Part shown: piece by piece, positions 8,683-41,611 of the stretch
Layout of the letters: each line of letters begins with the position of its first letter
Position numbering within the stretch: position 1 is the first letter of the stretch
Assembly (NCBI GenBank): GCA_902764875.1
Contig: CACWXP010000001.1
Coordinates: forward strand, 1-64,000
DNA length: 64,000 nucleotides
Direction: 5' to 3'
Origin: an uncultured Eubacteriales bacterium
Lineage (GTDB): Bacteria > Bacillota > Clostridia > Christensenellales > Aristaeellaceae
Position numbers and translations under genes: made by a program
The notes under the pieces: model-generated
Database searches by the model: none
What the model saw: the letters and a program-made list of their open reading frames with translations, nothing else
What the model was told of the DNA's origin: nothing

Positions 8683-10389
8683 ATGGAACTTGAAAAATAC
8701 ATCGGCTGTTCAGAAGCATCCAGAAAACTGATCCCCGCGGATCTGGTGCTGAAAAACGCCAGCATCGTCAACGTGTTCACCGACCGGGTTGAAAAAGGCA
8801 ACATTGCCATCAAGAACGGCATGATTGTCGGAATCGGTGACTATAAGGGGAAGGAAGAAATCGACGTCAAAGGCCAGTATGTGACGAGCGGGTTCATCAA
8901 CGCTCATCTGCACCTGGAATCCACCATGGTCAATCCGCAGGTGCTGATTGCCCAGGCGGCCATGCACGGCACAACGACCTTTATCGTGGATCCCCACGAA
9001 GCGGCGAACGTGTCCGGCAGGGACGGCATTGACTATATTCTGGATCAGACGAAGCATTCTCCCGCCCATGTATACGTGATGATTGCCTCCTGCGTTCCCG
9101 CAACGCCGATCGACGACAACGGTTTCCGGCTGACCGCACGGGAGATGGAACCCTACATCAAAAACCGGCGGGTGCTCGGCCTGGGCGAAGTCATGGACAC
9201 ACAGGCTGTGATCAACGGAGATCCGGAAATGAACGCCAAACTGCAGCTGTTTGACGGAAAGATCAAGGACGGACACGCCCCCTGCCTTTCGGAAGAAGAA
9301 CTGGCGGCCTATGTGATGGCCGGCATTACCACGGATCATGAAGGCACGAGCTATGAATACATCATGCGGGAACGCGCATCGGGCATGTTCTGTCTGATCC
9401 GGGAGGGCAGCGCCGCCCGAAATCTGGAAGCGATCGTGAAAGGCATTGTTGAAAACAACACGAACACGGAAGGCTTCGGATTCTGCACGGACGACCGCCA
9501 CATTGACGACATCATCCGGGAAGGCGACATCGACAACAACGTGCGCAAGGCGGTCAGCATGGGCATCAGCCCGATTGCCGCGGTGAAGATGGCGACGATT
9601 CAGCCGGCCCGCTGCTACGGGCTGCGCAGAACCGGGGCGGTGGCGCCGGGATACGACGCGGACCTTGTTGTGTGGGATTCCCTGAAGGACTTCAACGCGC
9701 AAATGGTCTTGTACAACGGACAGCGCATCGACGAAATGCTGAAGATTAAACCGGAGCCGTGCCCACCGCAGCTTTTCGACACGATCCGGCTGGCCCAGAT
9801 CGACCCCGCAAAGCTTGTGATCCGCACAGACGGCAAACCGTTCCCTGCGATCAAGATGATTCCCGGAGAGATCCTGACGGAGCGGGTGGACATGGTGCTT
9901 CCGGGGACGAAGAACGGCGGGGTATTCGTTCCGAACGGGGAAGTCAATAAAATTGCCACCTTTGAACGGCATCACTATACGGGCAAAATCGGGGCCGGGG
10001 CAGTTGTCGGATTCGGGATCCGCGGAGGCGCGATCGCTTCATCGGTTTCCCATGACAGCCACAACATCATTGCCATCGGCGACAACGACGAGGATATCCT
10101 GACCGCCGTCCGCGAACTGGAAAGGACGCACGGCGGGTATACCGTGGTTGAAAACGGAGAGGTTTTCGACACGCTGGAACTTCCGATCATGGGGCTGATT
10201 TCCGACCGGAGCTACAGCTATGTGAGCAAAAAGGTGCGGCGCATGACGGCTAAAGCACATAAAATGGGTGTACCGAAGAATATGGAACCCTTTATTACGC
10301 TGTCCTTTATGGCACTGCCGGTGATTCCGGAGATCCGCTGCACCCCGCGGGGCATCTTCTCCGTTTCCGAATGGAAGATGCTGACATAA
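8683..10389 (+). CDS. ade: adenine deaminase
   Basis: Converts adenine to hypoxanthine plus ammonia in the cytoplasm. The 568-residue length is normal for the bacterial Ade family. Metal ligands are visible in GFINAHLHLEST (His75, His77), and the family blocks GTTTFIVDPHEAANVSG, AGITTDHEGTS, GFCTDDRHIDDIIREGDIDNNVRKAV and SVSHDSHNIIAIG are all present. It is followed 72 bases later by guanine deaminase, which has its own promoter, so both feed purine bases into the hydroxylases downstream. A GGGGG-type binding site precedes the ATG. No purine riboswitch could be recognised in the 208 bases upstream, which hold only the divergent promoter and an AT-rich TATATATCATATA stretch. Confidence 0.96.
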   Translation: MELEKYIGCSEASRKLIPADLVLKNASIVNVFTDRVEKGNIAIKNGMIVGIGDYKGKEEIDVKGQYVTSGFINAHLHLESTMVNPQVLIAQAAMHGTTTFIVDPHEAANVSGRDGIDYILDQTKHSPAHVYVMIASCVPATPIDDNGFRLTAREMEPYIKNRRVLGLGEVMDTQAVINGDPEMNAKLQLFDGKIKDGHAPCLSEEELAAYVMAGITTDHEGTSYEYIMRERASGMFCLIREGSAARNLEAIVKGIVENNTNTEGFGFCTDDRHIDDIIREGDIDNNVRKAVSMGISPIAAVKMATIQPARCYGLRRTGAVAPGYDADLVVWDSLKDFNAQMVLYNGQRIDEMLKIKPEPCPPQLFDTIRLAQIDPAKLVIRTDGKPFPAIKMIPGEILTERVDMVLPGTKNGGVFVPNGEVNKIATFERHHYTGKIGAGAVVGFGIRGGAIASSVSHDSHNIIAIGDNDEDILTAVRELERTHGGYTVVENGEVFDTLELPIMGLISDRSYSYVSKKVRRMTAKAHKMGVPKNMEPFITLSFMALPVIPEIRCTPRGIFSVSEWKMLT

Positions 10390-10393
10390 TTCA

Positions 10394-10422
10394 TTGCAAA
10401 ATTGCCTTCTCTCTGCTATAAT
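10394..10422 (+). promoter_or_regulatory. promoter for guanine deaminase and downstream genes
   Basis: TTGCAA (10394-10399), 17-base spacer, TATAAT (10417-10422), in the 72-base gap after ade. The boxes are the same as in the promoter at 600-628. Confidence 0.7.
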
Positions 10423-10461
10423 TTCAAAAAAAAAGTGAGCCATAGATCAGAAAGAGGGAGT

Positions 10462-11751
10462 ATGCTTCACTTGAGCAGGAGCCATATCATAAAGGGGCAC
10501 ATCTGCCACGCGCCGGAAGCGGGCAGGCTTGAGATCCGGGAAAACGCCTTCGTCGTCTGCGAGGACGGGATCTGCCGGGGGATCTTTGACGAAGTGCCGG
10601 AGAAATACCGGGGACTGGAGATGGCCGACTGCACCGGGAAGCTGGTGCTGCCGGGCCTGGTCGATCTGCACATCCACGCGCCCCAGTACGCCTACCGCGG
10701 AACCGGAATGGATTACGAGCTGCTGGACTGGCTGTACAAAGTCGCCTTTCCGGAAGAGATCCGATATGAAGACGCGGAATATGCTGCAAAGGCCTACGGG
10801 ATCTTCGCACAGAAAATGAAGAAAAGCGCCACCACGCGGGCGGCAATTTTTGCCACGATGCACACGGACGCCGCGCTGATCCTTTCGGATGAGATGGAAA
10901 AGAGCGGTCTCATCAGCTTCGTGGGCAAGGTCAGCATGGATCGGGACGCCATGCCGGAACTGACGGAAAAGAGCGCGGAACAGGCCGCGGCGGAAGCAAG
11001 GCGCTTTATCACGGAAAGCGCCGCCCGGGCATACCGGAGAACGAAGCCGATTGTCACGCCCCGTTTTGTGCCCAGCTGCAGCGCCGAACTGATGGCGGAA
11101 CTCGGCAAAATCCGGAAGGAATACGGCCTGCCGGTGCAGTCTCACCTGTCTGAAAATCCGGACGAAGTGGAACTGGTCAGCCGGCTGGAACCGGAGGCGG
11201 CCTTCTACGGCGACGCCTACGACCGTTTCGGGCTCTTCGGAAGGGAAGGCCGGACGGTCATGGCCCACTGCGTTTATTCCACGCCGGAGGAAGTGCGGCG
11301 CATGAAAGAAAACGGCGTATGGATCGCCCACTGTCCGTCTTCCAACATGAACATCGCCTCCGGGATCGCCCCGGTGCGCCGGTATCTGGAGCAGGGGCTC
11401 CGGGTCGGACTGGGGACGGACGTGGCCGGCGGGACGACGGAATCCATGTTCCGGGCGGTGACGGACGCGATCCAGGTTTCGAAACTGTATTGGCGGCATG
11501 TGGATCGGGACGCGAAACCGCTGACCTTTGCGGAAAGCTTCCGGATGGCGACGAAAGGCGGCGGAGCCTTCTTCGGAAAAGCGGGAAGCTTTGAGGACGG
11601 TTATGAATTCGACGCGCTGGTGCTGGAGGATGCTTCCGAGCCGACGGCCCGCGAACTGACCGTCCGGGATCGGCTTGAAAGAGCCTTCTATTTCGAACTG
11701 GACCGGGTTGGGATCGTCATGAAGTTCGCCGGCGGCGAACGGATTCTTTGA
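10462..11751 (+). CDS. guaD: guanine deaminase (amidohydrolase)
   Basis: Hydrolyses guanine to xanthine and ammonia; 429 residues, amidohydrolase superfamily. Zn ligands are in VDLHIHAPQYAYRG, and the segment DYELLDWLYKVAFPEE is diagnostic of guanine deaminase rather than other cytosine or chlorohydrolase relatives. Further catalytic blocks are QSHLSENPDEVE, VMAHCVYS, AHCPSSNMNIASG and VGLGTDVAGGT. The chosen ATG at 10462 has AGAGGGAG directly upstream; the in-frame ATG at 10402 overlaps the promoter. It lies between ade and a xanthine-dehydrogenase-like operon, so xanthine is the expected meeting point of the pathway. Confidence 0.93.
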   Translation: MLHLSRSHIIKGHICHAPEAGRLEIRENAFVVCEDGICRGIFDEVPEKYRGLEMADCTGKLVLPGLVDLHIHAPQYAYRGTGMDYELLDWLYKVAFPEEIRYEDAEYAAKAYGIFAQKMKKSATTRAAIFATMHTDAALILSDEMEKSGLISFVGKVSMDRDAMPELTEKSAEQAAAEARRFITESAARAYRRTKPIVTPRFVPSCSAELMAELGKIRKEYGLPVQSHLSENPDEVELVSRLEPEAAFYGDAYDRFGLFGREGRTVMAHCVYSTPEEVRRMKENGVWIAHCPSSNMNIASGIAPVRRYLEQGLRVGLGTDVAGGTTESMFRAVTDAIQVSKLYWRHVDRDAKPLTFAESFRMATKGGGAFFGKAGSFEDGYEFDALVLEDASEPTARELTVRDRLERAFYFELDRVGIVMKFAGGERIL

Positions 11752-11773: not shown

Positions 11774-14197
11774 GTGGTTACGGGAAAAAGCGTCAAACGG
11801 GTGGACGCCTTTGACAAGGTAACGGGGCGCACCCGGTATACGGATGATCTGTGCGATAAAAAAGCATATATCGCGCGGGTGCTGCATGCAACCGTTGCCA
11901 ACGGGAAAGTGATCTCATTCGACACGTCGGAAGCGGAAAAGGTGCCCGGCGTCGTGAAGATCCTGACCTGTTTTGACCTGAAGGAAAAGCATTATTTCCC
12001 GACGGCGGGGCATCCGTGGTCCACGGATCCGGATCACCAGGACGTGGCGGACCGGCTGATCCTCACGGACCGGGTGCGGTTTTACGGCGACGATATCGCG
12101 GCCGTCGTGGCGGAGGACGAGGTGGCGGCGGCGCGGGCCCTGCGGCTGATCCGCGTGGAATACGAGGAGTATCCCTTCGTGCTGGATGTGCGCAAGGCCA
12201 TGGAGGACGGCGCGCCCCAGCTGCACGAAAACTTCCCGAACAACATCCTGAAGCACACGCAGATCCGCAGCGGCGATCTTGCGAAGGCGATTCAGGAACC
12301 CGGCCTGACGAAAGTGGAAGGCTGGTACGAAACGCCGGTGGTGCAGCACTGCCATATTGAGAATTTCATCTGCTTTGCCGAAATGGAAGGCGGCCGCATC
12401 ACCGTGACCACCTCCACCCAGATCCCGCACATCGTCCGGCGGGTGGTGGGCCAGGCCCTGGGCATGGACTGGGGAAAAATCCGGGTGATCAAGCCCTATA
12501 TCGGCGGCGGCTTCGGCAACAAGCAGGACGTTCTCTACGAACCCCTCTGCGCCTGGCTGTGCCTGCAGACCGGCGGCCATCTGGTCAAACTGGACGTTCC
12601 CCGGGAAGAAACCTTCGTCTGCAACCGGACGCGCCATTCGATCCGGAATCATATCATTTCCTGGGTGCGGCCGGACGGCACCTACGCCGCCCGCAAGCTG
12701 GAAGCCTTCTCCGACCAGGGCGCCTACGCCTCCCACGGCCACAGCATCTGCGCCAAGGGCGCCGGCGCCTTCCCCCAGCTGTATCCCTGTGAAAACGTCG
12801 AAGTGGACGCCTACACCGTCTTCACCAACAAGCCGGTGGCCGGCGCCATGCGCGGCTACGGCATCCCCCAGGCTATGTGGGCCGTGGAATCCCACACGGA
12901 GGATGTCTGCGCCGCCATCGGTGCGGATCCGCTGGAATTCCGCCGGCGCAACCTGATGCCGTTGGGCTATACGGACAGCTTCTCCAAAAACGAAAACTAT
13001 TACGATTCCTTCAACCAGTGCCTGAATAAGGCCATGAAAGCCATCGACTACGAAAGGAAATTCCGGGAGTACGAAAAGCAGAATGCTGACCTGCTTCATC
13101 CTGAACGCCAGGAACAAACAGCCCTGCATGCATCCGAAACTTCATCCTCCGGGAAGACGCCGGAAACAGATTCCCCCGGGCAGACGCCCGCAACAGATTC
13201 CAAACTGTCTGAGTCGCGAAGCGGCGATATACGTAGGGGTATCGGCCTCTCCGTCTTCTGGTACAACACGGCCGTCTGGCCGATCTCCCTGGAATCCAGC
13301 TCCTGCCGCATGGTGCTGAACCAGGACGGCTCCTTCCAGCTGCAGCTGGGCGAAACCGAAATCGGCCAGGGCGCGGACACGGCCTTTGCCCAGATGGCGG
13401 CGGACGTGGTCGGCGTCCCGCTTGAAAACGTGCACGTGGTCTCCTGCCAGGACACGGACGTGACGCCCTTCGGCACCAGCGCCTACGCCTCCCGCCAGAC
13501 CTATGTGGCCGGCTTCTCCATCCGCCAGACGGGCCTGCTGTTTAAGGAAAGAATCCTTAATTATGCCCATGAACTGACCCGGATGCCGGTCTTCAACCTC
13601 GACATCGTGGACGGCAACATCGTCCGCTCCACCGACGGCCGGGTCCTCATGACCCTGGGCGAACTGGCGACGGAAGCGCTCTACAGCCTGACCGCCAGCC
13701 AGCACATCACGGCGGAAAGCACCTATCAGGTGAAATCCAACGCCTACTCCTTCGGCTGCACCATCGCCGAGGTGGAGGTGGATATCCCCATGTGCCGGGC
13801 GAAACTGCTGAACGTCGTGAACTGCCACGACGCGGGCAAACTGATCAACCCGGCCCTGGCGGAAGCCCAGGTGCACGGCGGCATGAGCATGGGCATCGGC
13901 TTCGGGATGTCCGAAAAGCTGCTGTTCGACGAAAAGACCGGCCGCCCCCTGAACAACAACCTGCTGGACTATAAGCTCTCCACTTTCCTGGACCATCCGA
14001 CCCTGCAGGCGGAGTTTGTGGAAAACCCCGAACCCACCAGCGCCTTCGGCACCAAGGGCCTGGGCGAACCCCCGGCCTGCTCGGTGGCCCCCGCCATCCG
14101 CAACGCCATTTTCCACGCCACCGGCGTAGGCATCAAAGATGCCCCGGCCAATCCGCACAATCTGTTCAAAGCCTTCAAGGAAGCAGGATTGATTTAA
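11774..14197 (+). CDS. xanthine dehydrogenase family molybdenum-binding subunit
   Basis: Large molybdopterin subunit (807 residues) of a three-domain purine hydroxylase. It starts at GTG (11774) after GGGGGAAG. Moco-binding marks include GGGFGNKQD near residue 245, GAMRGYGIPQ, ETEIGQGADTAFAQ and the C-terminal GTKGLGEPP with the catalytic Glu. It is about 50 residues longer than E. coli XdhA because of a low-complexity insert at residues about 437-487 (13083-13235) that contains a 27-base direct repeat (see findings). It is followed 13 bases later by the fused FAD/2Fe-2S subunit, with which it should form the complete enzyme. The substrate is inferred from context: xanthine or hypoxanthine is most likely, though other N-heterocycles are possible. 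Confidence 0.93.
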   Translation: MVTGKSVKRVDAFDKVTGRTRYTDDLCDKKAYIARVLHATVANGKVISFDTSEAEKVPGVVKILTCFDLKEKHYFPTAGHPWSTDPDHQDVADRLILTDRVRFYGDDIAAVVAEDEVAAARALRLIRVEYEEYPFVLDVRKAMEDGAPQLHENFPNNILKHTQIRSGDLAKAIQEPGLTKVEGWYETPVVQHCHIENFICFAEMEGGRITVTTSTQIPHIVRRVVGQALGMDWGKIRVIKPYIGGGFGNKQDVLYEPLCAWLCLQTGGHLVKLDVPREETFVCNRTRHSIRNHIISWVRPDGTYAARKLEAFSDQGAYASHGHSICAKGAGAFPQLYPCENVEVDAYTVFTNKPVAGAMRGYGIPQAMWAVESHTEDVCAAIGADPLEFRRRNLMPLGYTDSFSKNENYYDSFNQCLNKAMKAIDYERKFREYEKQNADLLHPERQEQTALHASETSSSGKTPETDSPGQTPATDSKLSESRSGDIRRGIGLSVFWYNTAVWPISLESSSCRMVLNQDGSFQLQLGETEIGQGADTAFAQMAADVVGVPLENVHVVSCQDTDVTPFGTSAYASRQTYVAGFSIRQTGLLFKERILNYAHELTRMPVFNLDIVDGNIVRSTDGRVLMTLGELATEALYSLTASQHITAESTYQVKSNAYSFGCTIAEVEVDIPMCRAKLLNVVNCHDAGKLINPALAEAQVHGGMSMGIGFGMSEKLLFDEKTGRPLNNNLLDYKLSTFLDHPTLQAEFVENPEPTSAFGTKGLGEPPACSVAPAIRNAIFHATGVGIKDAPANPHNLFKAFKEAGLI
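13149..13202 (+). repeat. 27-bp in-frame tandem repeat inside the Mo-subunit gene
   Basis: Two imperfect copies (starts at 13149 and 13176) encode GKTPETDSP and GQTPATDSK. They lie in a low-complexity insertion that interrupts the otherwise conserved subunit. The copies begin CCGGGAAGACGCC and CCGGGCAGACGCC and end in ACAGATTCC. Confidence 0.75.
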
Positions 14198-14210: not shown

Positions 14211-15758
14211 ATGTATGACATAAAAGCGCTGTATGAAGCGGAGAGCGTCGAAGACGCGGTCTGCCTGCTGCAGGAGCACCCGGAAGCCCAGATCATTGCC
14301 GGCGGCAGCGACGTCCTGGTCCAGATCCGGGAGGGCAAACGCGCCGGCAAGGAACTGGTGAGCATCTACGGCATCGACGCGATGCGCGGCGTGACCCTCG
14401 ACGAAGAAGGCGCGATCCGCATCGGCTCCCTGACCAGTTTCTCCCACATCGCCGCATCCCCGATCATCCGGGAGTTCATCCCGGTGCTGGGCGAGGCGGT
14501 CAGCCTCGTGGGCGGCCCCCAGATCCGGAATATCGGCACCATCGGCGGCAACACCTGCAACGGCGTGACCAGCGCCGACTCCGCGTCCACGCTGGTGGCC
14601 TGGGACGCCGTCGTGGAGCTGACCGGCCCGGAGGGCGTCCGCAGGGTCCCGCTTCCGGAATTCTACATCAAAGCCGGCAAAGTGGATCTGCGGCCGGGAG
14701 AGATCCAGACTGCCATCCTCATCCCCAAAGCCGCTTATGAAGGCTATACCGGCAACTATATAAAATACGCCATGCGGGAGGCCATGGACATTGCCACCCT
14801 GGGCTGCTCGGTGAACGTCTCCCTGTCCGACGACAAAAAGACGATCCGGGACGTCCGCATCGCCTACGGCGTGGCCGGCCCGGTGCCGATGCGCGCTCCG
14901 ACCGCCGAGGCCAGGGCGAAGGGCAGGGAAGTTACCGCGGAAACGATCAAAGCCTTTGCGGAAGCCGTCCTCGAGGATATCCATCCCCGGGACAGCTGGC
15001 GCGCGGCCAAAGCCTTCCGCGAACATATCGCGGTGGAAATGGCCAAACGGGCGCTGACGAAGTCCATTGAACTTGCCCGGGCGTCCGGGAAACCTTCTCT
15101 CAATCAATCTGAAGAGCCCTGTGCTGAAACGACAGAAAGACCCGAGGTAAGCCCGAGACCCGAAGCATTACATGCGCCGGTATCCAGCCCGAAACCCGAA
15201 GCCGAACAGGCACAGGCCCTCAAGCCTCTTCAGAGAACCGAACCCGAAGGGAGCCCGAGGGGCGATCGGAAAGCCCCTCGGTATAAGCTGATCCGCTGCA
15301 CCATCAACGGAAAGCCCCGCGAAGCCATGATCGACGTCCGCGCGTCCCTGACGGATCTCCTGCGCAACGACTTCCGCCTCACCAGCGTCAAAAAAGGCTG
15401 CGAGGTGGGCGAGTGCGGCGCGTGCAACGTGCTGGTCGACGGCGAATGCTTCAACTCCTGCATCTACCTGGCCGTCTGGGCCGACGGCAGGGACATCCTG
15501 ACCCTCGAAGGCCTCGAAGGCCCGAACGGCGAGCTTTCCGATATCCAGCAGGCGTTCATCGACGAGGCCGCCGTCCAGTGCGGCTTCTGCACCCCCGGCG
15601 CCATCATGAGCGCGGTGGAAATCCTGAACGAAGGCCGGGAGCTGAGCGACGAGGAAATCCGCATCCGTATGTCCGGTCACCTCTGCCGCTGCACCGGCTA
15701 TGAGAACATCATGCGCGCGGTGAAGAAAACCATGCTGAAAAGGCTGGGAAAAGAATAA
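14211..15758 (+). CDS. fused FAD-binding and 2Fe-2S subunit of a xanthine-dehydrogenase-type enzyme
   Basis: One chain of 515 residues carries the electron-transfer modules. Residues 1 to about 290 are a CO-dehydrogenase-flavoprotein-like FAD domain (AGGSDVLVQIREGK, IRNIGTIGGNTCNG, YAMREAMDIATLG). Residues about 291-357 form a Pro/Glu-rich linker with repeated SPRPEA/SPKPEA units. Residues about 358-515 are the 2Fe-2S ferredoxin domain with CEVGECGACNVL, then CGFCTPG and CRCTGY. In E. coli these are separate genes (xdhB, xdhC) in the same order, so this looks like a gene fusion; classical xanthine dehydrogenases have Fe-S first and FAD second. GGAGG precedes the ATG. It partners with the Mo subunit 13 bases upstream. 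Confidence 0.93.
   Translation: MYDIKALYEAESVEDAVCLLQEHPEAQIIAGGSDVLVQIREGKRAGKELVSIYGIDAMRGVTLDEEGAIRIGSLTSFSHIAASPIIREFIPVLGEAVSLVGGPQIRNIGTIGGNTCNGVTSADSASTLVAWDAVVELTGPEGVRRVPLPEFYIKAGKVDLRPGEIQTAILIPKAAYEGYTGNYIKYAMREAMDIATLGCSVNVSLSDDKKTIRDVRIAYGVAGPVPMRAPTAEARAKGREVTAETIKAFAEAVLEDIHPRDSWRAAKAFREHIAVEMAKRALTKSIELARASGKPSLNQSEEPCAETTERPEVSPRPEALHAPVSSPKPEAEQAQALKPLQRTEPEGSPRGDRKAPRYKLIRCTINGKPREAMIDVRASLTDLLRNDFRLTSVKKGCEVGECGACNVLVDGECFNSCIYLAVWADGRDILTLEGLEGPNGELSDIQQAFIDEAAVQCGFCTPGAIMSAVEILNEGRELSDEEIRIRMSGHLCRCTGYENIMRAVKKTMLKRLGKE
15147..15290 (+). repeat. repeat-rich linker DNA in the FAD/2Fe-2S fusion
   Basis: The linker holds near-identical 17-base units (AGCCCGAGACCCGAAGC and AGCCCGAAACCCGAAGC), a third degenerate one, and a perfect 8-bp hairpin (CGAGGGGC / GCCCCTCG) near 15257-15281. 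It remains in frame throughout. Confidence 0.6.
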
Positions 15759-17290: not shown

Positions 17291-17349
17291 GGCCGGATGA
17301 ACGAATCCGCCGGCACAACAGGGAAACCGGCCTGCTGAAGAAGCTGTAA
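17267..17349 (+). repeat. 24-bp duplication of the 3' end of the PLP enzyme gene
   Basis: The last 24 bases of the gene, including its stop codon (17267-17290), recur exactly at 17326-17349, an offset of 59 bases. The second copy runs straight into the AAAGGAGGG binding site of the next gene. Between them is a short GC-rich segment with GGCCGG and CCGCCGG. Confidence 0.9.
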
Positions 17350-17362
17350 AGGAGGGTTTACC

Positions 17363-26855: not shown

Positions 26856-26911
26856 AAACGTTGAGCAATCGCAGTGCCTGGGGACGAATCGCCGGATTGT
26901 GAGGAATGAAC

Positions 26912-30961: not shown

Positions 30962-30996
30962 AGGAAAGAGGTCCCCGGCCTGGAGGAACAGACATC

Positions 30997-32653: not shown

Positions 32654-32703
32654 ACGGGGCAGGTATGGATCAGGCGGCGAACGCAGACAAAGAAGGTGAA
32701 GAG

Positions 32704-33556: not shown

Positions 33557-34243
33557 TCAGCTGTCAGAGGTTTTTTCCAAAAGAGAACAGGGAAAAGCGT
33601 CTTTATCGATCAGGTCGCAAAGCCTTCGCGCTGATTCCGGATCCGGCAGAGCGTTGATCTGATTGACCAGATAGGCATCCGCCAGTGCTTCCCGGTTTAG
33701 TACTTTGGCGATGACCTCTTCTGTTGCGGGTGCGTCCGGGGAGGTTTCCGCAAGCGAGGCGAACAGATCCGGACAGTGACAGACTTCAGAGACCGGTTTT
33801 CCGATACAGGAGGCGCCGACCAGGCAGACGGTTTGATCGGAGCAGGCGGGAATGACCGGCTCCCAGGGGCGGTGCGCCTTGAGAGGGCGGCCGGCGGAAC
33901 CGTCAGCTTCCACAAGAATATGATCCGCTTCTTTCAGAAGATCTTCAAAGGGCAAAAAGGGAGACGGATCGGCCAGCTTGCCGGAAGGTTCGGATTTTCC
34001 CAGACAGATAATCCGGTTGATGTCCAGGGCAGACCGGACTGCGCTGAGTGCCTGCTCCCGGTTCATTTGGGCCACATCCACCAGCGGGAACTCCGGAAAA
34101 GGGAAGATGTGCGTGGAAGTGGTCAGGATCACAGTTCCGGGAAGACGCTTTGAGAGATAACGCAAAAACGAGGTTTTTCCTCCGCTGCCGATGACTGAAA
34201 TACATTTTCCGGTGGGTTGAAACGCATCAAAGGGCCTGTACAT
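33557..34243 (-). CDS. yqeC: selenium cofactor biosynthesis protein YqeC
   Basis: A 228-residue P-loop protein of the YqeC family found with selenium-dependent molybdenum hydroxylases. The Walker-like motif is VIGSGGKTSFLRYL near the N-terminus; TTSTHIFP, ILVEADGSAGRPLKAH and EPVIPACSDQTVCLVG are family blocks. Its role is in forming the selenium-containing Mo cofactor; the chemistry is not established. GAGGAGGAAAG precedes the ATG on the minus strand. It is convergent with yqeB and divergent from modABC; the shared 190-base region holds an operator-like palindrome and the modA promoter. Confidence 0.92.
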   Translation of the reverse strand: MYRPFDAFQPTGKCISVIGSGGKTSFLRYLSKRLPGTVILTTSTHIFPFPEFPLVDVAQMNREQALSAVRSALDINRIICLGKSEPSGKLADPSPFLPFEDLLKEADHILVEADGSAGRPLKAHRPWEPVIPACSDQTVCLVGASCIGKPVSEVCHCPDLFASLAETSPDAPATEEVIAKVLNREALADAYLVNQINALPDPESARRLCDLIDKDAFPCSLLEKTSDS

Positions 34244-34376: not shown

Positions 34377-34433
34377 ACAGAACAGATCCTTTGAGAAAGG
34401 GAAATGTTCATAGCAGACCTGAGGAGGCAGAAA

Positions 34434-35264
34434 ATGAAAAAGGTTTGGATGATGATTCTTGCACTGGTACTGGCAACGGTTCTGTGCACCGCAGCGGCGG
34501 AAACACCGAAAACGGAAGTGGTGGTATTCGCGGCCGCGTCCATGACCGAAACCCTGACGGAGATTGAAGCTCTGTATGAAAAAGCAAATCCGGAGATTGA
34601 CCTGATTTTCAACTTTGATTCTTCGGGCACATTGAAGACGCAGATTCAGGAAGGCGCGGTGTGCGATCTGTTTATATCCGCCGGACAGAAACAGATGAAC
34701 CAGCTGGACATCACCAGGGACGAAGAGAAGAATCCGGAGCGGCTGGACTTCGTGCTGGAGGAAAGCCGGATCGACCTGCTGGAAAACAAGGTGGCGCTGG
34801 TTGTGCCGGCGGACAATCCGAAGGGAATCGAAAGCTTTGACGCCCTGGTGACCCTGCTGAAGGACGGAGACGTGCTGATGGCTATGGGCAATTCCGACGT
34901 GCCGGTGGGACAGTATACGCAGAAGATCCTGGCCTTCTATGAACTGAACGAAGAGGAACTGGCCAAAGCCGGCAAGATCACCTACGGCTCCAACGTGAAA
35001 GAAGTGACCACCCAGGTGGTGGAAGGCAGCGTGGACTGCGGAGTCGTTTACGGTACGGACGCTTTCAGCGCCGGACTGGGCGTCATTGATACCGCAACGG
35101 CCGAGATGTGCGGCCAGGTGATTTATCCCGCGGCGGTGATGAAGAACAGCACCGTGCCGGAAGCCGCGCAGGCGTTCCTGGATTACCTGCGGGGAGAAGA
35201 GGCAACAAAGATCTTTGAAGGAGTCGGGTTCACGGGTATACCCGCTGAAACCCCAGAAAAGTAA
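34434..35264 (+). CDS. modA: molybdate ABC transporter substrate-binding protein
   Basis: Secreted molybdate/tungstate-binding protein of 276 residues. The signal peptide ends near LCTAAAETPK with no lipobox cysteine. Oxyanion contacts are typical: FAAASMTETLTEI, FNFDSSGTLKTQIQEGA, DLFISAGQKQMNQL and the later QVVEGSVDCGVVYGTDA. The ATG at 34434 has GAGGAGG 8 bases upstream; an in-frame ATG at 34404 lacks one. The stop overlaps the modB start by one base (TAATG). The gene supplies molybdenum for the two hydroxylases of the island and may be co-regulated with selenium genes through the upstream motif. Confidence 0.95.
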   Translation: MKKVWMMILALVLATVLCTAAAETPKTEVVVFAAASMTETLTEIEALYEKANPEIDLIFNFDSSGTLKTQIQEGAVCDLFISAGQKQMNQLDITRDEEKNPERLDFVLEESRIDLLENKVALVVPADNPKGIESFDALVTLLKDGDVLMAMGNSDVPVGQYTQKILAFYELNEEELAKAGKITYGSNVKEVTTQVVEGSVDCGVVYGTDAFSAGLGVIDTATAEMCGQVIYPAAVMKNSTVPEAAQAFLDYLRGEEATKIFEGVGFTGIPAETPEK

Positions 35265-35938
35265 TGGATCTGTTTCCGCTTTGGAATTCTTTGCGGATCG
35301 CCGCAATCAGCAGTGTCATTGTGTTTTTCACGGGCATCTTTGCCGCCTACAAGGTGGCAAAGATGCCCCGCATTGTCAAAGGTATCCTGGACGTGATTCT
35401 GACGCTGCCGATGGTATTGCCGCCCACCGTATGCGGCTATTTTCTTCTGCTCATTTTCGGAGCACGGCGTCCGGTGGGACAGTTTTTGATGCAGTTTGGC
35501 ATTAAAATCGTGATGAATTGGCCGGGGGGCGTCGCGGCGGCAGTGGTGGTGGCTTTTCCGCTGATGTACCGGACGGCACGGGGCGCCTTTGAAAGCTTCG
35601 ACCAGAATCTGACCTGGGCCGGGCAAACGCTGGGCCTTTCAAATACCTGGATTTTCTGGAAGGTTCGCATGCGGGCCTGCCGGCAGGGGATCCTGGCCGG
35701 AACGGTATTGGCCTTTGCGCGGGCACTCGGGGAATACGGAGCGACCAGCATGCTGATTGGGTATACACCCGGCCGGACCGCCACGGTTTCCACCACAGTC
35801 TATCAGCTTTGGCGGACCAACGATGAGCAGGGCGCTTTTTTCTGGGTGATGGTGAACCTGGCGATCTCGGCGGCGGTGCTGCTGACGGTGAATATGCTGG
35901 AGAAGAAGAACGGGAGGCTGAAATGGCGCTCGAAGTAG
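35264..35938 (+). CDS. modB: molybdate ABC transporter permease
   Basis: A 224-residue inner-membrane permease with five to six spans, the usual ModB length. It contains LPMVLPPTVCGYFLLLIFG and the EAA-type loop ARALGEYGATSMLIGYTPGRT, which is the strongest ModB/CysT marker. The ATG overlaps the modA stop, and its own 3' end overlaps modC by 16 bases, giving translational coupling across all three genes. Confidence 0.95.
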   Translation: MDLFPLWNSLRIAAISSVIVFFTGIFAAYKVAKMPRIVKGILDVILTLPMVLPPTVCGYFLLLIFGARRPVGQFLMQFGIKIVMNWPGGVAAAVVVAFPLMYRTARGAFESFDQNLTWAGQTLGLSNTWIFWKVRMRACRQGILAGTVLAFARALGEYGATSMLIGYTPGRTATVSTTVYQLWRTNDEQGAFFWVMVNLAISAAVLLTVNMLEKKNGRLKWRSK

Positions 35939-36966
35939 ACATTGAGAAGAGGCTCGGATCATTTCACCTCCGCGCCGCTTTTTCCTGCGGGCGGGAATTC
36001 ATGGGCATCCTGGGCGCCTCCGGCTGCGGCAAGAGCATGACGCTGAAATGCATTGCGGGGATTGAAAAACCGGACCGGGGACGGATTGTGCTGGATGGGA
36101 GGGTGCTGTTCGATTCGGAAAAGCGGATCAACCTGCCGCCGCAGCAGCGCCGGGTCGGGTATCTTTTTCAGGATTACGCGCTGTTTCCGGGCATGACGGT
36201 GCGGCAGAATATCCAGTGCGGCCTGCACCGGGAGAAGGATAAACAGAAACGCGAGAAACGGTCAGACGACATGCTGGAACTGCTGCGGCTTCGGGAGGTT
36301 GCTTCCCTGCAGCCCGAAGCCCTTTCCGGAGGCCAGGCTCAGCGGGCAGCTTTGGGCAGGATTCTGGTGAACGAGCCTGATCTGCTGATGCTGGACGAAC
36401 CGTTCTCCGCGCTGGACAGCTTTTTGCGACTGAAACTGCAGACGGAACTGAAAGCGCTATTGACCGGATACGACCGGGGCATTCTGATGGTGACCCACGA
36501 CCGGGACGAAGCATTCCGGATGTGCGAACGGCTGGGCGTGATGGAGCAGGGGCAGATGCAGACCGTGAAGGGGACGAAAGAACTCTTCTCGGACCCGGAA
36601 ACCCGGGCGGCGGCCGTGCTGACCGGATGCAAAAACATTGCGGAAGCCCAAAAAACCGGGGAACATGAAGTGGCTGTTCCAGAATGGGGCATCCGCCTGA
36701 CAACCGGGAAACCGGTTCGTGACGGCCTGAAAGCCATCGGCATCCGGGCCCATGATTTTCATCCGGATACAAAGGAAAACTGTTTTCCAGTCCGGATTCT
36801 GCGGGAAACGGAAGAACCTTTTGAGTGGATCAGCGAGTTCCGCTATGAGCATCAGGCGGCCGGAAGCCCGGCTGTCTGGCGGCGGTATCCCCGGGAGTTC
36901 CGAACAAGCGAACCGCCGAAGCAACTGGGCGTTGCTCCGGCGGATGTGCTGCTGCTGTATGAATAA
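35923..36966 (+). CDS. modC: molybdate ABC transporter ATP-binding protein
   Basis: A 347-residue ATPase. Walker A is LGASGCGKSM, Q-loop FQDYALFPG, signature LSGGQAQRAALGR, Walker B LLMLDEPFSALD, and the switch His is in VTHDRDEAF. The C-terminal third is a regulatory region without clear duplicated Mop domains. The start lies inside modB. It is convergent with the DUF3343 gene, whose stop is only 9 bases downstream, and no terminator hairpin is evident between them. A generic sulfate or spermidine ATPase is possible by domain alone, but modA and modB settle the role. Confidence 0.93.
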   Translation: MALEVDIEKRLGSFHLRAAFSCGREFMGILGASGCGKSMTLKCIAGIEKPDRGRIVLDGRVLFDSEKRINLPPQQRRVGYLFQDYALFPGMTVRQNIQCGLHREKDKQKREKRSDDMLELLRLREVASLQPEALSGGQAQRAALGRILVNEPDLLMLDEPFSALDSFLRLKLQTELKALLTGYDRGILMVTHDRDEAFRMCERLGVMEQGQMQTVKGTKELFSDPETRAAAVLTGCKNIAEAQKTGEHEVAVPEWGIRLTTGKPVRDGLKAIGIRAHDFHPDTKENCFPVRILRETEEPFEWISEFRYEHQAAGSPAVWRRYPREFRTSEPPKQLGVAPADVLLLYE

Positions 36967-37514: not shown

Positions 37515-38621
37515 TCAGCCTTTTGCTTTGCCGGAGCGGATATTGAATTCACCGATGGCGGTCACGACGATGATTCCGATGATGACCGCGATCTTGCCGT
37601 TGTCCGTCGGGCCGGCACCGCTGGAGGCCAGGCCGAAATTGTGGGCGAAGGCAGCGCCGAGCAGAAGTCCCACGACGGTCAGGGCGCTGTCCGTATTGCC
37701 TTCACCGGCCAGCACCAGCTGACGGAGGGGGCAGCCGCCCAGCAGTACGCAGGCGAAACCGACCAGGAGCATACCGAGGGCGTTCCAGACACCGTCCATA
37801 TGGGCCACCGGCTGGGCTTCAAAGCCGAGGGTGAAATAGGTTCCGGAGAAAGCGGCTGTGAAGACCAGGTTGGCGGCGAGCGCTGCGGCGAAGATCGCGA
37901 CAAAACCGAGCAGGAGCTTGAACTCTTTAAAGAGGATCGCATCCCGGATGCCGCCGACCATGCACAGGCGGGTCCGCTGTGCCAGACCGCCGACGATCAG
38001 ACCGGCGAGGAGGCTGATCCAGGTGGCCGCGTGCAGCAGACCGGGGCCGGGATTGGGATTCTCTTCCGTTGCTGCCGTGAACTTCAGAAGGGAAGGAACC
38101 GCGAGCAGCAGGATGAGCAGTACCACTGCGATGGCGGGCATGGCCGAACCTTCTGACACGGGAAGCCGGTAGGTCCTCTTCAGGGAATAACCGCGCTTCA
38201 GGTAGAGCACGCCGCATCCGATGCCGGCGGCAAAACCGACGAGGCCGAGAATCGCGTTGAGGTCACCACCCGCCAGACGGAGAATCATGCGGAAGGGGCA
38301 GCCGAGGAACATCAGGCAGCCGATCATGGCGAAGAAACCGAGAACCAGCCGCGTCATCGGCGAGCTGCCGCCGCGGGGTGAAAATTCCTTTTTTGCCAGC
38401 GAAAGCAGGAAACTGCCGAGAATAATCCCGATGATTTCCGGGCGCAGATACATAACGCCTTTTGCGCTGTGGAGTCCCAGGGCGCCGGCTGTATCCCGGA
38501 TAAAACAGGCGATACAGAAGCCCATGTTTTTCGGATTGCCCAGCAGCACCAGCGCGGAGGCGATGACGCCGATGACCAATCCGGCAATGATGATCATCCA
38601 TTTTTCCTTTGCGACTTTCAT
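37515..38621 (-). CDS. yedE: YedE-related selenium metabolism membrane protein
   Basis: A 368-residue membrane protein with about ten spans, YeeE/YedE (DUF395) family. Conserved cysteine patches are CIACFIRDTAGALGLH, LGCPFRMILRLAGGDLNA, RLCMVGGIRD and LGGCPLRQLVLAGEGNTDSA; cysteines in such motifs pass thiosulfate in YeeE, and here probably a selenium or sulfur species. It continues into yedF and the DUF3343 gene, so the three form an operon. A long near-palindrome and a promoter region shared with the divergent desulfurase-like gene lie upstream. The substrate, selenium or sulfur, is inferred from context. Confidence 0.92.
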   Translation of the reverse strand: MKVAKEKWMIIIAGLVIGVIASALVLLGNPKNMGFCIACFIRDTAGALGLHSAKGVMYLRPEIIGIILGSFLLSLAKKEFSPRGGSSPMTRLVLGFFAMIGCLMFLGCPFRMILRLAGGDLNAILGLVGFAAGIGCGVLYLKRGYSLKRTYRLPVSEGSAMPAIAVVLLILLLAVPSLLKFTAATEENPNPGPGLLHAATWISLLAGLIVGGLAQRTRLCMVGGIRDAILFKEFKLLLGFVAIFAAALAANLVFTAAFSGTYFTLGFEAQPVAHMDGVWNALGMLLVGFACVLLGGCPLRQLVLAGEGNTDSALTVVGLLLGAAFAHNFGLASSGAGPTDNGKIAVIIGIIVVTAIGEFNIRSGKAKG

Positions 38622-38769: not shown

Positions 38770-39948
38770 ATGCAAAAGATTTACCTGGATCAGGCCAGCA
38801 CCAGTTTTCCGAAGGCACCCGGTACGGCGGACGCCGTTTACCGCTACATGACGGAGTGCGGATGCAATACGGGCCGCGGCGGTTACGCGGGAGCCTATTT
38901 GGCGGAAGAAGTTGTATACGATACGCGTGTGCTGCTGCGGAGGTTGTTTTGCGGGGACGAACCGGAGATCTCACCGAAGAATGTGGTTTTCACCAGAAAC
39001 ATCACGGAAAGCCTGAACGTTCTGATGAAGGGCCTTCTGCGGCCGGGAGACCATGTGCTGGTTTCCTCCATGGAACACAATGCTGTGATGCGGCCGCTGG
39101 TACAGCTGGAGAAACAGGGGATCCGCTTCACACGCATTCCGTGTGCCGCGGACGGAACCATGGATCCGGCTGACGCCGAATCCCGGATGGAATCCTCGAC
39201 AAAAGCTTTGGTCATGCTGCACGCCAGCAACGTCTGCGGCACGGTGCTGCCTGCCGCTGAAATCGGCGCGCTCTGCCGGAGACGGGGAATCTTCTTTATC
39301 CTGGATACGGCTCAGACAGCAGGCGTTCTGCCTGTGAATATGAAAGAAATGAACATTGATGCGCTGGCATTTACCGGACATAAGGGACTGCTGGGCCCTC
39401 AGGGAACCGGGGGATTCCTGATCCGGGACGGGCTGGCGGGTGACGTGGAACCGCTGATTGCCGGCGGGACCGGCAGCATCAGCCACACGGAGGACATCCC
39501 GGATTTCCTGCCGGACCGGTTTGAGGCGGGGACACTGAATCTTCCCGGAATCGCGGGACTGCAGGCGTCCGTTTCCTGGCTGATGGAGCAGCCGGAGGGG
39601 TACGTGTTGGCGCATGAACTGCAGCTGACGGAGCGTTTCCTACGCTCCATGGAACCGCTGGAGGAAGAAGGGCGGCTTCGCATTATCGGAAGACATGATA
39701 CTTGTCAGCGGGTCGGCGTAGTCTCTGTTCTTCCGCTTCATTTGGATCCGGCGGAATTCGCTTTCCGGCTGGATGAGGAATATGGCATTGCGACGCGGGT
39801 CGGGCTGCACTGCGCGCCTTCCGCGCACAGGACACTGGGAACCTGGCCAACGGGAACCGTGCGGTTCTCCTTCGGAGCGTTCAATACGGCAGTCGAGATC
39901 GACGAAGCGGTTCAGGCTGTGACGGTCCTCTGCCGTGCAGAAAAGTAA
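38770..39948 (+). CDS. aminotransferase class V, cysteine desulfurase-like
   Basis: A 392-residue PLP enzyme of the NifS/CsdA fold: YLDQASTSFPKAP, NTGRGGYAGAYLAEEVVYDTR, VFTRNITESLNVLMKG, SSMEHNAVMRPL, FILDTAQTAGV and the PLP lysine in AFTGHKGLLGPQGTGG. The C-terminal region has RVGLHCAPSAHRTLGTWPTGTVRFSFG, whose Cys fits the sulfur- or selenium-accepting position of group II desulfurases. The ATG at 38770 follows CGGAGG. It diverges from the yedE operon and is followed by a LysR regulator, so its likely job is delivering selenium or sulfur from (seleno)cysteine to SelD or to Moco maturation. Confidence 0.9.
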   Translation: MQKIYLDQASTSFPKAPGTADAVYRYMTECGCNTGRGGYAGAYLAEEVVYDTRVLLRRLFCGDEPEISPKNVVFTRNITESLNVLMKGLLRPGDHVLVSSMEHNAVMRPLVQLEKQGIRFTRIPCAADGTMDPADAESRMESSTKALVMLHASNVCGTVLPAAEIGALCRRRGIFFILDTAQTAGVLPVNMKEMNIDALAFTGHKGLLGPQGTGGFLIRDGLAGDVEPLIAGGTGSISHTEDIPDFLPDRFEAGTLNLPGIAGLQASVSWLMEQPEGYVLAHELQLTERFLRSMEPLEEEGRLRIIGRHDTCQRVGVVSVLPLHLDPAEFAFRLDEEYGIATRVGLHCAPSAHRTLGTWPTGTVRFSFGAFNTAVEIDEAVQAVTVLCRAEK

Positions 39949-40002
39949 GGCACGATCGTGATTCCATAACATACGAATCGACAGGAGGTCAGGGAGATTC
40001 AC

Positions 40003-40911
40003 ATGGAACTGAAACATCTGGTATCTTACGCAAGTGTCGTTCGGCTGGGGAGCTTCAGCCGCGCCGCTGAGGAACTTTATATTGCCCAGCCGACGATCAG
40101 CCTGCATGTTCGGCAGCTGGAGGAAGAACTGCAGACGAAACTGCTGATCCGGACCACAAAGAACATTGAACTGACGGAAAAGGGCCGGGAAGTCTATGAA
40201 TGCGCGATGAGCATCCTGCAGCTCCGGGACCGGATTCTTGAAAAATGCTCCGACGGTGAGACAAGAATTATCCGTCTGGGCGCTTCCACCATTCCGTCCG
40301 CGTATATTCTGCCGGAAGTGTTGCCCGCCTACGCCAAACGACATCCGTCCACCTATTTCACGATTGACCAGGGGGACAGCAGGTCCGTAGCCGAAAAACT
40401 GACCGAAGGCGTCATTGACATTGGACTGATCGGCATGAAACCTTCCTCGTCGGAGCTTTCCGCGGAACCTTTTTATGAAGACACTGTCGTCATCATCACG
40501 CCTGTGCGGGAACCGTTTCTATCCATGAAGGAAAACGGCACTGCCACGCTGCAGAAACTGTTTGAGGCGCCCGTGATCCTGCGGGAGGAGGGCAGCGGAA
40601 GCCTGAAAGCGGCGGATGCTTTTCTGGCGAATGCGGGATATTCCGAAGGCGACCTGCAAGTGGCCGCGCGGACCAACGATCCGGAAGCCATCAAAAACCT
40701 TGTGGCGCAGGGACTGGGTATTTCCATGATCTCTTCCAAGGCAGCGGAAAACTACAGCAGGGAAAACCGGCTGCTCGTGTTTTCCTTTCCGGAGGTTTCC
40801 GGCAGCCGGACGCTTTACATCGCGACAAGGAAGCATGCGGTACTCGGAGAGCGGGCAAGAGATTTCCTGCGGTATATCCGGCAGTTTTACGCAATCCCCA
40901 AAGGTCTGTAA
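40003..40911 (+). CDS. LysR family transcriptional regulator linked to selenium metabolism
   Basis: A 302-residue LysR protein. The N-terminal winged helix-turn-helix covers about residues 1-60 (LVSYASVVRLGSFSRAAEELYIAQPTISLHVRQLEEEL), followed by a linker helix and two substrate-binding lobes (RLGASTIPSAYILPEVL, GDSRSVAEKLTEGVIDIGLIG, NLVAQGLGISMISSKAA). GGAGG lies upstream of the ATG. Its position next to the desulfurase-like gene and yedE suggests that it controls selenium or purine genes and that its sites may be the TTTATCAGGATT motifs at 34335 and 38709. The inducer is unknown. Confidence 0.92.
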   Translation: MELKHLVSYASVVRLGSFSRAAEELYIAQPTISLHVRQLEEELQTKLLIRTTKNIELTEKGREVYECAMSILQLRDRILEKCSDGETRIIRLGASTIPSAYILPEVLPAYAKRHPSTYFTIDQGDSRSVAEKLTEGVIDIGLIGMKPSSSELSAEPFYEDTVVIITPVREPFLSMKENGTATLQKLFEAPVILREEGSGSLKAADAFLANAGYSEGDLQVAARTNDPEAIKNLVAQGLGISMISSKAAENYSRENRLLVFSFPEVSGSRTLYIATRKHAVLGERARDFLRYIRQFYAIPKGL

Positions 40912-40953
40912 ACAAATCGGAAAGATTTTAACACTTTTGCCATCATTCCTTAC

Positions 40954-40982
40954 TTGAATTTTGTCAGATATCAGCGTATAAT
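40954..40982 (+). promoter_or_regulatory. promoter of the xpt/nucleoside transporter operon
   Basis: TTGAAT (40954-40959), 17-base spacer, TATAAT (40977-40982). A second TATAAT lies about 20 bases further on. No purine riboswitch is recognisable in the leader. Confidence 0.75.
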
Positions 40983-41026
40983 TTTCATCAATCCCGGGTA
41001 TAATGTTCGTGTTTTGGGAGGGCGTC

Positions 41027-41611
41027 ATGGAAGCGTTACGCCAGATGATTCTGGAAAAGGGCAAAGGAATCGGGAACGATATCGTGAAGGTGGACATGTT
41101 CCTGAACCACCGGATCGACACGGCTTTACTGTTTCAGATGGGGGAAGCCTGGGCAGACGAGTTCCGGGACGAAAAACCGGAGTTGGTTCTGACTGTCGAG
41201 GCCAGCGGCATCGCGATGGCCGTTTCCGCAGCCCACGCGCTGGGGGATATCCCGGTGGTGTTCGCCAAGAAAAGCGCTACCGCCGTGCAGAATCAGGATG
41301 TGGTGCAGGCGCCGGTCTACTCCTTCACCCACAAAACCCAGAACATGATCCGGATTGAAAAACAATACCTGCCGGAAGGCGCCCGGGTGCTGATCATTGA
41401 CGACTTCCTGGCAGACGGCCAGGCCGCCCGCGGCCTGATGAACCTGTGTTGGCAGCAGGGCGCCGTGGTTGTGGGCGTCGGGATCGCGGTGGAAAAAGGT
41501 TTCCAGCCCGGCGGGAAAGTGCTCCGGGAATCCGGGGTACATGTGAAGTCATTGGCAATCGTTGACCGGATTGAGGACGGGAACATCGTTCTCCGGCCGG
41601 AGGACGACTGA
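41027..41611 (+). CDS. xpt: xanthine phosphoribosyltransferase
   Basis: Salvages xanthine to XMP using PRPP; 194 residues, as usual for XPRT. N-terminal LRQMILEKGKGIGNDIVKVDMFLNHRID, the type I phosphoribosyltransferase site VLIIDDFLADGQAARG, and LTVEASGIAMAVSAAHALG with FAKKSATAVQ support it. The start at 41027 follows GGGAGGG. It opens an operon with a purine-nucleoside-type BMP transporter, so salvage is placed directly beside the catabolic island. A weak hairpin (TGATC/GATCA plus T6) follows the stop. Confidence 0.95.
   Translation: MEALRQMILEKGKGIGNDIVKVDMFLNHRIDTALLFQMGEAWADEFRDEKPELVLTVEASGIAMAVSAAHALGDIPVVFAKKSATAVQNQDVVQAPVYSFTHKTQNMIRIEKQYLPEGARVLIIDDFLADGQAARGLMNLCWQQGAVVVGVGIAVEKGFQPGGKVLRESGVHVKSLAIVDRIEDGNIVLRPEDD

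Follow-up and report, generated by a model that had tools for sequence, protein, structure and literature searches.

A selenium- and molybdenum-supplied urate island in an uncultured Eubacteriales bacterium with a pair of PLP enzymes as the probable replacement of YgeX

The stretch of DNA considered here (the window) comprises positions 1 to 64,000 of contig CACWXP010000001.1 (C1) of an uncultured Eubacteriales bacterium, whose assembly of 3.27 Mb in 67 contigs has an estimated completeness of 93%. It carries a selenium-molybdenum island for purine and urate catabolism that is real and largely of a known kind, and its new part is a pair of genes for pyridoxal 5'-phosphate (PLP) enzymes, here called PLP489 and ThrCL, that lie between xdhBC and ssnA and probably take the place of YgeX, the diaminopropionate ammonia-lyase. 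We consider it probable that this is a reductive urate island of the Enterococcus faecalis and Escherichia coli kind in which the PLP pair replaces YgeX, and likely, with slightly greater confidence, that the two enzymes act at the step that handles the three-carbon unit. Judged from sequences, the association of the pair with the route appears well supported, its standing as a module for that step moderately so, and its chemistry weakly. The observations concern gene content, the lack of a YgeX over cut-off, the conservation and linkage of the pair, and residue patterns; genes were named from lists of open reading frames (ORFs) and NCBIfam scans against curated cut-offs, with Pfam as an extra source, and a match below cut-off is to be read as a best match only.

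The route reconstituted by Li et al. 2025 leads from urate to 2,8-dioxopurine, continues through YgfK-SsnA, HyuA, YgeW and YgeY, and ends with the conversion of diaminopropionate to pyruvate by YgeX (PMC12507026), and that of Liu et al. 2025 likewise ends with YgeX according to the comment by Percudani (PMC12990295), as described in the cited sections. In the window, YgfK, SsnA, HyuA, YgeW, carbamate kinase and YgeY all score over their NCBIfam cut-offs. No YgeX over cut-off was found in the 93%-complete genome, where the best match to the model is ThrCL, at 62 versus 276 bits, and the route is thus left without its canonical last step. The first-pass annotation of this DNA had described nearly the whole route as contiguous, which holds for the genes up to YgeY and fails for ygeX, and it had left out the two PLP-enzyme genes at 15821-18625. 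Both PLP489 and ThrCL match PF00291 (Pfam PALP), the family through which Li et al. 2025, in the cited section, scored YgeX in gene neighbourhoods (PMC12507026), so that a variant with the PLP pair would be counted as YgeX and the change hidden. No report of the pair as a variant of the urate route was found in the Creative Commons-licensed literature of PMC.

PLP489 fails the cut-offs of the cysteine synthase and cystathionine beta-synthase families (cysK, 79 versus 351 bits; cysKM, 75 versus 344). The ThrCL gene has no ATG, GTG or TTG at the expected place of its start (17350-17371); an ATA codon at 17363 lies 7 nucleotides (nt) past an AGGAGG, and 48 of the 54 ThrCL homologs examined have an ATG at the same place or at most two codons off; the gene may start at AUA, which would be rare, or may have undergone a base change. 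A second ThrC-like gene is present on contig 30 of the genome. The 3' end of the PLP489 gene (55 nt, stop codon included) recurs 59 nt downstream with 80% identity (17236-17349).

The evidence that ties the pair to the urate route comes from its distribution, beginning with 200 genomes of the order that served as the identical set in every search. YgfK gave 19 matches at E<=1e-100, and removal of four that covered only part of the model left 15 (14 over cut-off and one split over two contigs). PLP489 gave 15 matches at E<=1e-20, 14 of which reached E<=1e-180; these 14 all fall within the 15 YgfK genomes, with none in the other 185 (Fisher p = 1.3e-20, although the genomes are related), and the fifteenth, in G124 (2.4e-21), a genome that lacks YgfK, is only distantly related. 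ThrCL, at E<=1e-90, occurs in nine of the 15 YgfK genomes and in none of the 185 others. YgeX occurs in 13 genomes, comprising exactly the six YgfK genomes without ThrCL and seven others, and among the YgfK genomes PLP489 accompanies ThrCL in nine of nine cases and YgeX in five of six. Furthermore, PLP489 and YgfK lie on separate contigs in seven of the 14 genomes (G010, G039, G048, G099, G157, G181 and G192), some of which may be explained by contig ends, and the association therefore does not rest on linkage alone. These counts bear on the plainest alternative, namely that the window holds an ordinary known selenium-molybdenum urate island and that the two PLP genes are unrelated neighbours: most genes do match published islands one for one, but the genome-wide co-occurrence with YgfK, half of it between different contigs, makes this explanation highly improbable.

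A wider sample of 398 genomes of the phylum held YgfK over cut-off in 44, five matches at E<=1e-130 that fell below cut-off having been dropped. Here we read the scores of the PLP489 profile as three bands, PLP489 proper (at least 650 bits, or split over contigs), one near 450 bits and one near 300 bits, and searched for ThrCL and YgeX in the 62 genomes positive for PLP489 proper or YgfK, and not in the other 336. PLP489 proper was found in 34 genomes, 16 of them with YgfK and 29 with SsnA (28 over cut-off). The 44 YgfK genomes include 38 with ThrCL and 15 with YgeX; 11 have both, 27 ThrCL alone, four YgeX alone and two neither, so that in the phylum sample YgfK is accompanied by ThrCL more often than by YgeX. 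The two genomes with neither gene are 81-85% complete, and in three of the four with YgeX alone the match to the YgfK model is a partial one. PLP489 or a relative of approximately 300 bits is present in 37 of the 38 genomes that have both ThrCL and YgfK, and in the thirty-eighth (L165) the relative is cut at a contig end, a co-occurrence that suggests a two-enzyme unit. A strict rule by which YgeX and ThrCL exclude each other is true in the order sample, is broken by the 11 of 44 phylum genomes that have both, and has been withdrawn.

Residue patterns show how far ThrCL departs from the family that its score would give it. Its profile aligns over approximately 345 residues with threonine synthase (PDB 2ZSJ, 1UIM), scoring 259 bits to 2ZSJ, and the PLP lysine is kept in 80 of 80 ThrCL-homologous ORFs (not de-duplicated). 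Unlike threonine synthase, all 80 lack residues S155, R160 and N188 of the Thermus thermophilus enzyme, which we take to be its phosphate contacts, and have Ala/Gly, Leu/Met/Thr and Asp at the respective positions. Because these presumed contacts are all missing, ThrCL is unlikely to be a threonine synthase, high as it scores. The intact lysine, with Asp at the N188 position and Leu/Met/Thr at that of R160, would also suit a diaminopropionate ammonia-lyase, and ThrCL alone might have that activity as a non-orthologous replacement of YgeX, with PLP489 as an accessory that, for example, converts D- to L-diaminopropionate. The clean division of the 15 YgfK genomes of the order between ThrCL and YgeX, nine to six with no overlap, and the presence of PLP489 on both sides of it speak for such a division of labour, but the near-constant company of PLP489 or its relative (37 of 38 phylum genomes) and the coexistence of YgeX with ThrCL in 11 of 44 speak against it; we regard it as a possibility that deserves attention, if the less probable one.

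For PLP489, the preferred reading of a pair that acts jointly on the three-carbon unit draws on structure. The protein keeps the PLP lysine (K107), an STGN loop and the motif HRIEGIGDK, and its AlphaFold model, built with 67 sequences, has a predicted local distance difference test score (pLDDT) of 93.7. The top Foldseek match of the model, and also of a poorer one, is Fn1055 (PDB 5B53/5B55/5Z5C), a cysteine (hydroxyl)lyase reported in the cited sections to convert cysteine and water to serine and sulfide (PMC9865163, PMC9600241), 5B53 being Fn1055 itself (PMC9865163). The entries 5b53 and 5b55 differ at one residue, an Asp to Asn change, and 5b55 is titled as a D232N mutant with an aminoacrylate intermediate. 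This Asp aligns with D294 of PLP489, which is invariant in 67 of 67 sequences and is Ala in the cysteine synthase 7n2t. Unlike PLP489, Fn1055 is approximately 150 residues shorter and acts on cysteine, and the two are only about 22% identical. The match of D294 to D232, together with serine genes (serC, serA-like, glyA) in the gene neighbourhood of several loci, suggests that PLP489 may direct water to attack an aminoacrylate, and hence may make serine from diaminopropionate. O-phosphoserine would be another conceivable product, in view of the serC and serA-like genes near PLP489 described below, and ranks below serine.

The route that we propose would start with deamination of adenine and guanine by Ade and GuaD, after which XdhA-XdhBC would oxidize hypoxanthine and xanthine to urate. 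The selenium-dependent xanthine dehydrogenase (XDH)-type enzyme, matured by SelD, YqeB and MocA, would reduce urate to 2,8-dioxopurine, whose ring would be reduced and opened by YgfK and SsnA, with HyuA yielding 2,3-diureidopropionate. YgeW and ArcC would then turn one ureido group into carbamoyl phosphate and ATP, and YgeY would remove the other to leave 2,3-diaminopropionate, from which PLP489 and ThrCL would take the three-carbon unit. Less firmly, PLP489 might exchange the 3-amino group for water, giving L-serine, and ThrCL might form pyruvate by beta-elimination of serine or diaminopropionate. The steps from urate to diaminopropionate are carried over from published work in other species, and we infer every reaction of PLP489 and ThrCL as well as the allotment of steps between the two molybdenum enzymes. 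The serine chemistry of the pair is tentative. A bolder statement, that YgeX is not the usual last step in this phylum, that most sampled YgfK genomes use a two-enzyme PLP module, and that PLP489 converts diaminopropionate to L-serine in a new reaction by which purine carbon would enter as serine (and thence glycine and one-carbon units) plus pyruvate, strikes us as a whole as somewhat unlikely.

To sample the gene neighbourhoods of PLP489, named genomes were scanned with its alignment; this gave at least 594 relatives, of which the best 80 were kept, a choice that biases the set to the window's own protein. By title, most of the 80 loci are from Clostridia, and the rest include Treponema, Synergistaceae, Halanaerobiales, Chloroflexi and further groups; in many of them the contig stops a short way from PLP489. 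Of the 80 loci, 57 contain ThrCL, and in 52 it lies on the same strand within 1.6 kb. The locus of the cultured rumen isolate Oscillibacter ruminantium GH1 (L062) holds PLP489, ThrCL, ygeW and ygeY. At least one gene of the urate pathway is found in 47 loci and at least two in 37; individually, ygeW occurs in 34, ygeY in 33, hyuA in 15 and YgeX in five, and in four loci of the order (L038-L041) YgeX directly follows PLP489. A protein of approximately 217 amino acids, named from its sequence as YheO/PAS-like, was observed in 28 of the 80 loci (among them L056, L058, L062, L072 and L078), and among 16 of these it lies no more than 110 nt from PLP489 in 10; other loci have a protein of approximately 180 amino acids near ThrCL that reads as an XRE-cupin regulator; representatives of both had no NCBIfam match at E<=1e-20. 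Three Chloroflexi-type loci have ThrCL and PLP489 with no YgfK or SsnA match in the fetched stretch, the accompanying genes being hyuA and those of a BMP-type importer in L110 and L123, and YgeW-like genes and carbamate kinase in L122.

A set of neighbours of another sort raises the question of whether the pair serves purine carbon by way of glycine and serine and has no part in diaminopropionate breakdown. In this scheme glycine from purines would be converted by GlyA to serine, and ThrCL would be a serine dehydratase. Seven of the 80 loci have a serC gene within 3.1 kb of PLP489 and six have a serA-like gene no further than 5.4 kb from it; both also follow the pair in L030 and L031 (one serC representative is over cut-off, and the serA representative matches phosphoglycerate dehydrogenase below cut-off); glyA stands 38 nt from PLP489 in L106 and, in L160, separates ThrCL from a PLP489 relative, and a glyA-like protein, judged by eye only, adjoins ThrCL in L155. 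Purines also stand in for glycine and threonine in a minimal medium of Clostridioides difficile, according to the cited section (PMC11448449). The commonest pathway partners are nevertheless ygeW and ygeY, which belong to the diaminopropionate route, glyA is found in only two of the 80 loci, and the scheme leaves PLP489 with no obvious role, all of which renders it unlikely.

It is also conceivable that PLP489 is a sulfur or selenium enzyme, either a cysteine synthase or a lyase on sulfonated or selenated alanine, that feeds the island's selenium or Fe-S supply. In fold it is a neighbour of cysteine, beta-cyanoalanine and cystathionine synthases, a selenocysteine-lyase-like gene is present in the island, and the rhizobial plasmid relatives discussed below adjoin TauE/SafE sulfite exporters or lie within 7 kb of them. 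Against it, all 14 genomes with PLP489 in the order have YgfK, 29 of the 34 in the phylum have SsnA, and selD is found in none of the 80 loci within the fetched flanks of at most 10 kb, a weak test of linkage for selD and the mod genes alike, as these lie 14-17 kb from PLP489 in the window (selD at approximately 14 kb). We hold this explanation to be quite unlikely.

Several observations weigh against the reading of the PLP pair as the replacement of YgeX in a urate route. The nine-to-six split between ThrCL and YgeX in the order spans only two families on the ThrCL side and four on that of YgeX, and because five of the 200 order genomes have PLP489 and YgeX without ThrCL, PLP489 may do something that YgeX does not. 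In the phylum, ThrCL and YgeX were sought in the 62 genomes preselected for PLP489 or YgfK, a set that gives no measure of their specificity, and the 80 loci, as best matches to the window's protein, are a biased sample. ThrCL and YgeX occur together in the 11 of 44 YgfK genomes noted above and in loci L048, L054 and L097, a coexistence that means the replacement is not strict. Eighteen of the 34 genomes with PLP489 have no YgfK, PLP489 proper is absent from 28 of the 44 YgfK genomes (22 of which have a relative of approximately 300 bits, 35-43% identical), and such relatives also occur in 18 genomes without YgfK. The lead of Fn1055 in E-value over the beta-cyanoalanine and cysteine synthases is narrow, several of the latter having a higher TM-score, and ThrCL is over the NCBIfam cut-offs for threonine synthase. 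Finally, relatives of PLP489 with 42-44% identity, which keep D294 and do not keep R288, are found on plasmids of Bosea and Rhizobium with a sulfite exporter adjoining (Rhizobium) or 7 kb off (Bosea). The exporter points to a sulfur substrate there, the relatives possibly being uncharacterised lyases of sulfonates or sulfur amino acids; the PLP489 family is thus not tied to urate, and other 3-substituted alanines may be substrates.

The two plasmid genes (L174:10070-11404, Bosea vaviloviae; L175:9962-11461, Rhizobium sp. NXC24) are on plasmids typed as conjugative, the exporter being of the TauE/SafE type, and at the Bosea locus RidA and an IS481 transposase follow. For the relatives of approximately 300 bits, an identification as OrtB was considered and dropped, without comparison to an OrtB sequence, because those looked at (L154-L165) lie together with ThrCL and, for the most part, with further genes of purine clusters such as hyuA, the selenium-dependent XDH, yqeB or guaD.

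The remainder of the island conforms to the picture of a purine and urate cluster with its own selenium and molybdenum supply that the first-pass annotation had drawn, and family scans support that picture (Table 1). Nearly every gene it listed was named by NCBIfam at the same position, most over the curated cut-off, the matches of guaD, mocA, modC and the importer being below it; the importer also reaches to approximately 46599, beyond the end at 41611 that had been given to the island. The genes that mark the selenium-cofactor trait are present, since selD, yqeB and yqeC all stand close to a molybdenum hydroxylase. A model of SelA, selenocysteine synthase, had no match in this genome (93% complete; selenouridine synthase was not searched), and SelD may therefore serve only the selenium cofactor here. 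The island holds two molybdenum hydroxylases, and in our alignment the position of XdhD E606 is part of an insertion that neither of them has, which is uninformative as to which is the urate reductase. The window proteins scanned, which did not include every ORF, held no urate permease of the UacT/XanQ type, the rest of the genome not having been searched for one. Because yqeC and yedE lie on the minus strand, the stretch is not one operon, and nothing in the window attained the gathering score of an Rfam family, which leaves regulation without the backing of a riboswitch.

Table 1. Genes of the island and the model matches by which they were named (scores in bits, given against the model cut-off)
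Gene and product	Position	Strand	Match
ade, adenine deaminase	8683..10389	+	TIGR01178 531 vs 472.5
guaD-like guanine deaminase	10402..11751	+	TIGR02967 338, below cut-off 375
xdhA, Mo-binding subunit of three-subunit-type xanthine dehydrogenase	11774..14197	+	NF043082 1176 vs 780
xdhB (FAD) and xdhC (2Fe-2S), one fused protein	14211..15758	+	NF043083 residues 1-288, 430 vs 310; NF043084 residues 360-508, 247 vs 217
PLP489, fold-type-II PLP enzyme, cysteine-synthase-like, no named family, HRIEGIGDK motif	15821..17290	+	PF00291 41 vs 35; below all NCBIfam cut-offs listed
ThrCL, threonine-synthase-like PLP enzyme, probable ATA start 17363	17363..18625	+	PRK08197 317 vs 303; TIGR00260 216 vs 167
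ssnA, aminohydrolase of reductive urate pathway	18665..20005	+	NF005540 643 vs 444
ygfK, flavin/Fe-S reductase	20024..23059	+	TIGR03315 1288 vs 835
ygeY, M20-family hydrolase	23216..24595	+	NF009555 631 vs 321
ygeW, knotted carbamoyltransferase	24611..25810	+	TIGR03316 784 vs 500
arcC, carbamate kinase	25830..26798	+	TIGR00746 382 vs 358
Selenium-dependent-XDH-type Mo hydroxylase, fused 2Fe-2S domain, candidate urate reductase	26906..29515	+	TIGR03311 1242 vs 830
hyuA, D-hydantoinase	29570..30961	+	TIGR02033 535 vs 393
mocA-like Mo-cofactor nucleotidyltransferase	30958..31608	+	TIGR03310 93, below cut-off 186; PF12804
selD, selenophosphate synthetase; ORF opens 31505, ATG 31610	31610..32653	+	TIGR00476 396 vs 125, from ORF residue 41
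yqeB, Se-cofactor maturation	32650..33513	+	TIGR03309 353 vs 220
yqeC	33557..34243	-	TIGR03172 137 vs 73; PF19842
modA, modB, modC, molybdate ABC importer	34404..36966	+	TIGR01256 ModA 123 vs 62.5; TIGR02141 ModB 194 vs 183; ModC 206, below 285
yedE, putative selenium transporter	37515..38621	-	TIGR04112 482 vs 200
Cysteine desulfurase/selenocysteine-lyase-like, start approximate	38770..39948	+	TIGR01977 (EF2568-type) 428 vs 377; SclA NF040779 399, below 525
Selenium-metabolism-associated LysR regulator (LysR_Sec_metab)	40003..40911	+	NF040786 298 vs 250
xpt, xanthine phosphoribosyltransferase	41003..41611	+	NF006671 230 vs 177
BMP-type (nucleoside-like) ABC importer: binding protein, ATPase, two permeases	41658..46599	+	PF02608; NCBIfam best matches below cut-offs

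Two short repeats were observed within the island, a 42-nt near-tandem duplication (26772-26861; 93% identity, 48 nt apart) at and just past the end of arcC, and a 30-nt repeat (23079-23143; two copies, 35 nt apart, 90% identical) between ygfK and ygeY. The flanking genes that were scanned encode mostly ABC transporters, together with two glycoside hydrolase family 2 (GH2) glycosidases, a rhamnosidase and a GGDEF-EAL protein, and several had no Pfam match.

The suggestion that the island is transferable finds only indirect support. PLP489, YgfK and ThrCL had no match in the three other sampled genomes of the genus or the nine other sampled genomes of the family, and the GC content at third codon positions is 0.80-0.84 from xdhA to ygeW versus 0.62-0.69 in four flanking genes. 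That of other island genes overlaps the flanks (yqeB 0.65, lysR 0.65, yqeC 0.59), the window has no tRNA, and no transposase or integrase was seen among those window proteins, short of every ORF, that were scanned. In a congener without a YgfK match, a YgeX over cut-off (G097:C42:49802-50947) has two in-frame stop codons and is possibly a decaying remnant.

If the PLP pair is indeed the final step in most members of the phylum that carry YgfK, species would differ in whether urate ends as pyruvate or as serine, and engineered uricolytic strains could use the pair. Urate-destroying gut bacteria bear on gout and hyperuricaemia. Surveys based on ygeX would miss genomes of this kind, and those that accept any PF00291 protein would mislabel the last step.

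A urate island that supplies its own selenium and molybdenum cofactors is of a known kind. According to the cited sections, Haft and Self 2008 tabulated the gene set for E. coli b2866-b2882 and for E. faecalis EF_2563-EF_2582, the latter with selD, a selenocysteine lyase and mocA (PMC2276186); the E. faecalis island includes the molybdenum transporter EF2572 (PMC7701990); and Johnstone and Self 2024 observed impaired growth of C. difficile on xanthine and urate in selD and yqeB mutants (PMC11448449). As compared through the published Table 1, E. faecalis V583 has yqeB, yqeC, selD, selenocysteine lyase, ygfJ/mocA, the selenium-dependent XDH, the molybdenum transporter, arcC, ygeW, ygeY, hyuA, ygfK and ssnA in one region, as does the window, and it has selD without a selenocysteine system, which may also be true of the window. 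EF_2579 is YgeX, whereas the window has PLP489-ThrCL instead, and beyond the genes tabulated for E. faecalis the window adds ade, guaD, xdhA-xdhBC, modABC, yedE, the LysR regulator and xpt. The E. coli region b2866-b2883, in which no PLP489 or ThrCL is annotated, shares xdhABC, ygeW, ygeY, hyuA, yqeA, yqeBC, mocA, ygfK, ssnA and guaD with the window; E. coli differs in having YgeX, YgfM-XdhD, permeases and YgeV, a putative sigma-54 regulator, and its selD is elsewhere (b1764). With the pathway of Li et al. 2025, as set out in the cited section, the window shares all enzyme families up to YgeY, and the two part at the last enzyme, which there is YgeX (PMC12507026).

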